This document shows, piece after piece, positions 18,470 through 18,658 of a stretch of 43,694 nt of DNA. Position numbers and translations under genes: made by a program. A model generated the notes under the pieces. It saw only the letters and a list, made by a program, of their open reading frames with translations, was not told where the DNA came from and ran no database searches. Where the stretch lies: positions 1-43,694 of the forward strand of contig NZ_QWKZ01000010.1 in assembly GCF_003574085.1 (NCBI RefSeq), written 5' to 3'. Positions within the stretch are counted from its first letter, which is position 1, and each line of letters starts with the position of its first letter. The DNA comes from Meiothermus luteus (lineage in GTDB: Bacteria > Deinococcota > Deinococci > Deinococcales > Thermaceae).

Positions 18470-18499
18470 TTGACCGGCCCCACCTCCAGGGCTTAGCAT
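18470..18499 (+). promoter_or_regulatory. pyr operon promoter
   Basis: TTGACC (18470-18475), an 18-nt spacer and TAGCAT (18494-18499). Transcription would start near 18506, just before the PyrR-binding hairpin. Confidence 0.65.
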
Positions 18500-18522
18500 A
18501 GCGGGCGGGCTTAGGCCCCAAC

Positions 18523-18552
18523 CTTTAAGCCGATCCCGTGAGGTCGGAAAGG
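18523..18552 (+). promoter_or_regulatory. PyrR-binding hairpin overlapping the leader ribosome-binding site
   Basis: The core GATCCCGTGAGGTC (18532-18545) fits the PyrR-binding consensus ARUCCNGNGAGGYU except that the terminal A-U pair is G-C. Upper stem CCGA/TCGG, a purine bulge AAG on the 5' side, and lower stem CCTTT (18523-18527) with AAAGG (18548-18552) reproduce the known element shape. The lower stem includes the AAAGGAG Shine-Dalgarno site of the leader peptide, so PyrR-UMP binding would shut leader translation. Confidence 0.85.
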
Positions 18553-18559
18553 AGCGAAG

Positions 18560-18658
18560 ATGCACACCGGTAAAAGACCAAAGGCCAAGCGCCCAAGCGG
18601 GCGTATTTTTTTGTCCTGGCCCAAGCTGGGTAGGCTAGGCTTGGAGGGAAGACCATGA
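18560..18658 (+). CDS. pyr leader peptide (32 residues)
   Basis: ATG 18560 lies 5 nt after AAAGGAG and opens a 32-codon frame ([15 protein letters not shown]…EGRP) whose TGA overlaps the pyrR ATG (ATGA, 18655-18658). The peptide is basic and lacks a run of regulatory codons, so ribosome occupancy rather than peptide sequence should matter. The frame crosses the intrinsic terminator at 18589-18612: a translating ribosome would disrupt it and would also deliver ribosomes to pyrR. This matches the coupled attenuation described for the Thermus ZO5 pyr cluster. Confidence 0.8.
18589..18612 (+). terminator. Attenuator inside the pyr leader ORF
   Basis: GCGCCC (18589-18594) and GGGCGT (18599-18604) form a 6-bp stem with an AAGC loop, followed by A and seven T residues (18606-18612). 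It lies within the leader-peptide coding region, so leader translation should suppress it. Confidence 0.8.

Follow-up and report, generated by a model that had tools for sequence, protein, structure and literature searches.

For the pyr cluster of Thermus ZO5, coupled attenuation was reportedly proposed in 1997 by Van de Casteele and colleagues, in a system where pyrR is said to stand first in a pyrR-pyrB-...-pyrC cluster, behind a PyrR-type element and a terminator, and where a translating ribosome, not an antiterminator, is said to prevent termination; an ORF called bbc reportedly lies between pyrB and pyrC. For Mycobacterium smegmatis, Fields and Switzer reportedly described in 2007 a PyrR-dependent translational repression that acts at the ribosome-binding site of the pyr genes themselves. 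In Bacillus subtilis, PyrR stabilizes an anti-antiterminator (PMC4347634). A search of titles and abstract beginnings, with most subscription journals outside its coverage, showed no article on regulation by PyrR in Thermus or Meiothermus, and a search for Meiothermus with pyrR found none within the same coverage. The mechanism as a whole has reportedly already been proposed for Thermus ZO5; what is new in this work is its support by comparison with related genomes, in which the one-strain Thermus proposal of 1997 was put to a phylogenetic test and passed it.

The stretch of DNA analyzed here (the window) comprises 43,694 nucleotides of Meiothermus luteus, and its sequence contains what is very probably a PyrR-controlled coupled attenuator of a pyrRBC operon. 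The features of this element and of the genes behind it are as follows.

18470-18499, plus strand: promoter, TTGACC (18470-18475), 18-nt spacer, TAGCAT (18494-18499), matching 9 of 12 consensus bases.
18522-18552, plus strand: predicted PyrR-type RNA hairpin, from the fold, the RF00515 alignment, a covariance model match (18520-18555) and covariation.
18548-18554, plus strand: leader Shine-Dalgarno AAAGGAG, 5 of its 7 bases forming the 3' arm of the lower stem.
18560-18658, plus strand: leader ORF of 32 codons plus TGA (ATG 18560, TGA 18656-18658), its frame kept open in relatives, its amino acids not conserved.
18589-18612, plus strand: intrinsic terminator inside the leader ORF (stem 18589-18604, T-run to 18612), from the terminator scan and relatives.
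18638-18668, plus strand: hairpin burying the pyrR Shine-Dalgarno GGAGG (18643-18647), with the pyrR ATG in its loop, from a computed fold; mixed in relatives.
18655-19200, plus strand: pyrR, 181 aa (NF003549, E 3.1e-75; 1ufr, E 4.3e-88).
19197-20120, plus strand: pyrB, aspartate carbamoyltransferase (NF002032, E 9.6e-113).
20127-21431, plus strand: pyrC, dihydroorotase (NF006841, E 3.5e-215).

The promoter, the PyrR-type hairpin and the AAAGGAG in its lower stem, all of which a first-pass annotation had named, are present as judged by the sequence, the promoter scan and the RF00515 alignment, and the 32-codon leader ORF that it placed across an intrinsic terminator, with an ATGA overlap to pyrR, was likewise found. 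The promoter is the single promoter-like site in 18380-18720 by consensus scan (shuffles gave a mean of 0.0), and the transcript would start near 18505-18507. Upstream of pyrRBC lies mnmA in divergent orientation, and profile matches place the pyr genes, pyrR included, downstream of the leader, as in the Thermus ZO5 type. The two clusters differ in that pyrB and pyrC are adjacent in the window, whereas bbc is said to intervene in Thermus ZO5. They appear alike in the PyrR-type element, the terminator and the ribosome-based antitermination said to operate in that strain, a layout that is also found in Thermus-type loci.

The regulator itself is widespread in this family, since PyrR was found in 49 of 50 Thermaceae genomes, and the closest named relatives of the window protein are those of Meiothermus taiwanensis (93%) and M. 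rufus (92%). Its nearest solved structure is 1ufr, from T. thermophilus, and its R19, H22, H138, R139, R144 and K150 are common to all 5 other aligned PyrRs; in the B. subtilis protein, RNA is bound by residues of this type. By sequence, the window PyrR is intact and close to a solved PyrR.

The predicted steps of the proposed mechanism are the binding of PyrR, the dependence of that binding on UMP, the loading of a ribosome and termination. When UMP or UTP is plentiful, PyrR would clamp the hairpin and hide the leader ribosome-binding site, so that no leader ribosome could load, the terminator would form and transcription would end near 18612. When pyrimidines are short, PyrR would leave the hairpin, whose lower stem would be partly open at growth temperature; a ribosome could then load and trail the polymerase through the terminator region, where its presence would keep the terminator from forming and allow pyrRBC to be transcribed. 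A less-supported step would be that a leader ribosome stopping at the ATGA is also needed for translation of pyrR, a second lock that is considered below.

The hairpin on which this mechanism would turn is composed of a lower stem, in which CCUUU (18522-18526) pairs with AAAGG (18548-18552), and an upper stem, in which CCGAUC (18530-18535) pairs with GGUCGG (18542-18547), so the ribosome-binding site of the leader is held in a PyrR-type hairpin stem as in the Thermus ZO5 type. PyrR-binding RNA has the consensus ARUCCNGNGAGGYU. The Rfam PyrR family, RF00515, aligns over 18518-18612 with both hairpin core and lower stem, at 32.4 bits (E 0.0085) against a gathering score of 54, and a Rfam search of the window gave no match at the gathering threshold. 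The hairpin had earlier been drawn at 18523-18552; the structure stands, with its start moved one base upstream to 18522. Folding of 18500-18660, also proposed by the first-pass annotation, revealed no extra stability relative to shuffles (z 0.01), and a fold started at 18507 retained the PyrR hairpin. A 5' segment that competes with the hairpin in the centroid of the 18500-18660 fold was rejected because it needs bases upstream of the predicted transcript start. Computed pairing in the window hairpin at 60 C, free of protein, is 50-65% for the lower stem and 56-89% for the upper stem. The lower stem is thus predicted to be marginal without protein, and a clamp by PyrR would matter.

Because the whole fold of 18500-18660 is no more stable than shuffles, the case for the element rests on conservation. 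A single sequence alone is weak evidence, and it is the comparison with related genomes that settles the reality of this predicted element. PyrR matches were present in 93 genomes of the class to which the window belongs, and upstream DNA was taken from 89 of them (G077, G090, G097 and G104 were left out). A covariance model was built from 20 rows of equal length (alignment A2) of Thermaceae sequences. It matched 82 of the 89 pyrR loci, while L136, L137, L138, L140, L150, L169 and L170 gave no match and stand outside the 82; under strict filters its one match in the window's own genome is 18520-18555. Among Thermaceae, the hairpin precedes pyrR at every locus (49 of 49). When the loci were realigned with the model (alignment A3, which for that reason leans towards the model structure), 99.2% of cells in 56 distinct rows were paired, compared with 40-67% when the partner was slid, and 19 cells in these rows were changed on both sides. 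The covariation score was reached by 0 of 500 shuffles. Two other measures are unexceptional, in that 54 of the 500 shuffles had as many pairs changed on both sides (3) and 323 had as many pair types (10). Covariation bears on the upper stem, the lower one being almost invariant. Pairing is indeed kept in the A-U to G-C change noted earlier, as class columns 14-27 covary (GC 51, AU 3, CG 2). In four of the loci without a model match (L136, L137, L138 and L150, from G054, G055, G050 and G053), two PyrR-like cores were seen by eye in tandem 5' of the ribosome site, and one of the four computed folds, that of L137, encloses both cores in one outer stem as a three-way junction.

At the gathering threshold, RF00515 detected the Bacillaceae loci (4 of 4) and none of the class loci that were tested (0 of 16). 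The public Rfam model therefore misses all 16 tested PyrR elements of this clade, and surveys relying on it may overlook the clade. The Rfam PyrR family was used in a survey of cis-regulatory RNAs (PMC3766115).

The assignment of the lower-stem AAGG as a ribosome site holds across the class, in that a start codon lies 6-10 nt past it in 82 of 82 matched loci (at 7 nt in 52), in a count that admitted only frames with 15 or more open codons and a spacing of 5-10 nt and in which leader openness is therefore partly selected. These 82 loci comprise 68 with a separate leader ORF, 13 with the hairpin directly on the pyrR start and 1 in which the leader is fused in frame. A terminator was found in 64 of the 68 leader-layout loci (none was detected in L129, L146, L165 and L166), and each of the 64 is crossed by the ORF, as had been claimed for the window, where the ORF crosses an intrinsic terminator ahead of pyrR as in the Thermus ZO5 type. 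A terminator-like site alone is not rare, at a mean of 0.5 per shuffled region. For the Thermaceae, start codons were chosen to have a minimum of 15 open codons. The leader frame stays open beyond the U-run at all 47 testable loci, as opposed to 22 and 27 of the 47 for the two remaining frames; L102 and L129, the 2 of 49 loci without a U-run, were excluded from this test. A second start candidate exists in 3 of the 49 (L084, L098 and L109), each with an immediate stop.

In 44 of 47 Thermaceae loci the leader extends to the pyrR start or past it, counting L130, where the leader runs on into pyrR. The stop forms an ATGA overlap in 17, as at 18655 in the window, and lies 11 nt inside pyrR in 21, the position in most Thermus-type loci. 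In the nearest relative of the window (L083) the leader stops 16 nt short of pyrR, so the ATGA is common, not universal. The one fused case, L130 (G042, a genome that is 65% complete), has a leader frame that continues in frame into pyrR across the terminator, and represents either a fused leader-PyrR or an assembly error.

That the leader ORF encodes a small protein with its own function would account for a frame that is kept open. This explanation is extremely unlikely, given that the amino acids are variable, that the length ranges over 23-45 codons at 47 Thermaceae loci and 18-55 codons at other class loci, and that 13 loci keep the hairpin without a separate ORF. A conserved leader peptide was rejected on 49 synonymous against 246 non-synonymous codon differences, counted over 40 related pairs that are not independent of one another; the differences numbered 174, 94 and 126 at codon positions 1, 2 and 3. 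The absence of peptide conservation fits a ribosome that needs only to be present, as expected from the earlier proposal that the peptide works by ribosome occupancy.

The window shares PyrR, the hairpin core, a CCUUU/AAGG lower stem and a downstream terminator with the B. subtilis system described by RF00515, whose alignment covers both hairpin and terminator, so attenuation of the Bacillus type has to be weighed. The hairpin would then be an anti-antiterminator, an antiterminator formed without PyrR would pair hairpin and terminator sequences, and the leader ORF would be incidental. The predicted hairpin-terminator duplexes of 47 loci have a mean energy of -17.1 kcal/mol versus -19.3 kcal/mol with shuffled terminators, and thus no excess complementarity. 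An antiterminator of this composition was rejected on this comparison with shuffled terminators. For this pairing, the only one covered by the comparison, the window has no competing antiterminator, in contrast to the anti-antiterminator arrangement of B. subtilis (PMC4347634). The leader frame is moreover conserved open, and 13 relatives retain the hairpin without a terminator, which together make Bacillus-type attenuation very unlikely at this locus. With respect to hairpin-terminator pairing, the window therefore lacks an antiterminator, like the Thermus ZO5 type.

Relatives that lack the leader ORF and the terminator and keep the hairpin with its ribosome site can be viewed as natural controls for coupled attenuation. 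In the 13 direct-layout loci (L102 of genome G049, L142, L143, L145, L148, L151-L155, L160, L162 and L164), the hairpin stands before an in-frame pyrR start, with a terminator in 0 of 13 and no separate leader ORF; the gap of 13-39 nt leaves little room for a terminator. This direct layout is a predicted natural switch to direct translational control. It occurs in four genera of family f5 and in G049, a genome assigned to the window's family but not to its genus, so that, going by taxonomy, it probably arose at least twice. Genomes were thereby identified in which coupled and direct forms can be compared.

A PyrR hairpin reportedly hides a ribosome-binding site in M. smegmatis and would do so in the window; the site is said to be that of the pyr genes in the former, whereas in the latter it belongs to a leader ORF with a terminator. 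Direct hiding of the pyrR site by the PyrR hairpin is not found in the window, where approximately 100 nt, the leader ORF and the terminator intervene, and is found in the 13 relatives. Two genomes of f5 (G091 and G093, loci L201 and L202) contain a second hairpin that starts near 244 and 225, respectively, and is followed at 10 nt by an ORF with a match to dihydroorotase (pyrC); at least the first 37 residues of this ORF match no dihydroorotase model, so the true pyrC start may lie further in. A second covariance model match was also observed in the genome G094. Relatives place what appears to be the same hairpin lock on pyrR or on pyrC. Across loci, the constant feature is a ribosome-binding site within the PyrR hairpin and the variable one is the frame that it serves, and this is the main argument that hiding of the ribosome site would be the working step.

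The window may hold a second lock, one that the first-pass annotation did not mention: its pyrR Shine-Dalgarno GGAGG is paired with pyrR codons 2-5 and has a computed unpaired value of 0.01 at 60 C. When the upstream segment was shuffled, 2 of 200 versions gave a value as low. Because the pyrR ribosome site is buried, the leader ribosome would also be needed for translation of pyrR. This computed burial, together with the direct layout in 13 relatives, favors control by translation only, in which PyrR would block leader translation, the leader ribosome would open the buried pyrR start and the terminator would be minor. That possibility is very unlikely, as a terminator is present in 64 of the 68 leader-layout loci and always lies within the ORF, and as 23 of the 26 Thermus-type loci for which a value was obtained have a pyrR site that is half open or more, unlike the buried site of the window. 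In those Thermus-type loci the second lock would fail. When pyrR was randomly recoded with synonymous codons (100 trials), the number of recodings with as low an openness was 5 of 100 for the window, 0 for L083 and L086, 3 for L089, 6 for L085, 10 for L092 and 12 for L087, compared with 24 for L096, 37 for L093, 57 for L095 and 99 for L084. These computed values are suggestive of a second lock in some near relatives and ambiguous in L093, L095 and L096, and that of L084 contradicts one there.

Coupled attenuation, the preferred reading for the window, may be spread more widely, beyond the phylum. Hairpins before pyrR (E up to 0.01) were found in 32 of 72 loci searched outside the phylum; AAGG is present in 32 of these 32, and a start codon lies behind it in 7 of 32 under nearly the same rule. 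A broader and tentative idea, unlikely on balance, is that the PyrR hairpin is a lock that can be moved between ribosome-binding sites and that lineages of the phylum have set on a leader ORF, pyrR or pyrC, that the window carries a double lock, and that AAGG outside the phylum, where it mostly has no start codon behind it, is what remains of an older lock on a ribosome site that gave rise to the antiterminator version.

Several minor observations concern other loci and the surroundings of the operon. Outside the phylum, the PyrR hairpins of L027 and L044 (Omnitrophota), L064 (Nitrospinota) and L049 (a MAG of the Actinomycetes) have AAGG with a start codon behind it that opens an ORF of 16-23 codons. 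L203 and L204 (G107 and G106) have PyrR hairpins more than 1 kb upstream of pyrR, with a GTG ORF of 42-43 codons 7 nt behind. In the window, the 160-codon ORF 3' of pyrC (21467-21949) has no match in NCBIfam or Pfam, and positions 22192-35541 hold a series of long ORFs with DUF11-type repeats, within which no Pfam family matches the 1852-codon ORF (26648-32206) at E 1e-5. At 15959-17248, ORFs match a Rieske protein (PF18465) and the large subunit of an arsenite oxidase-type enzyme (TIGR02693), the latter over the middle of the model only (451-657 of 806), and are perhaps a decayed enzyme.
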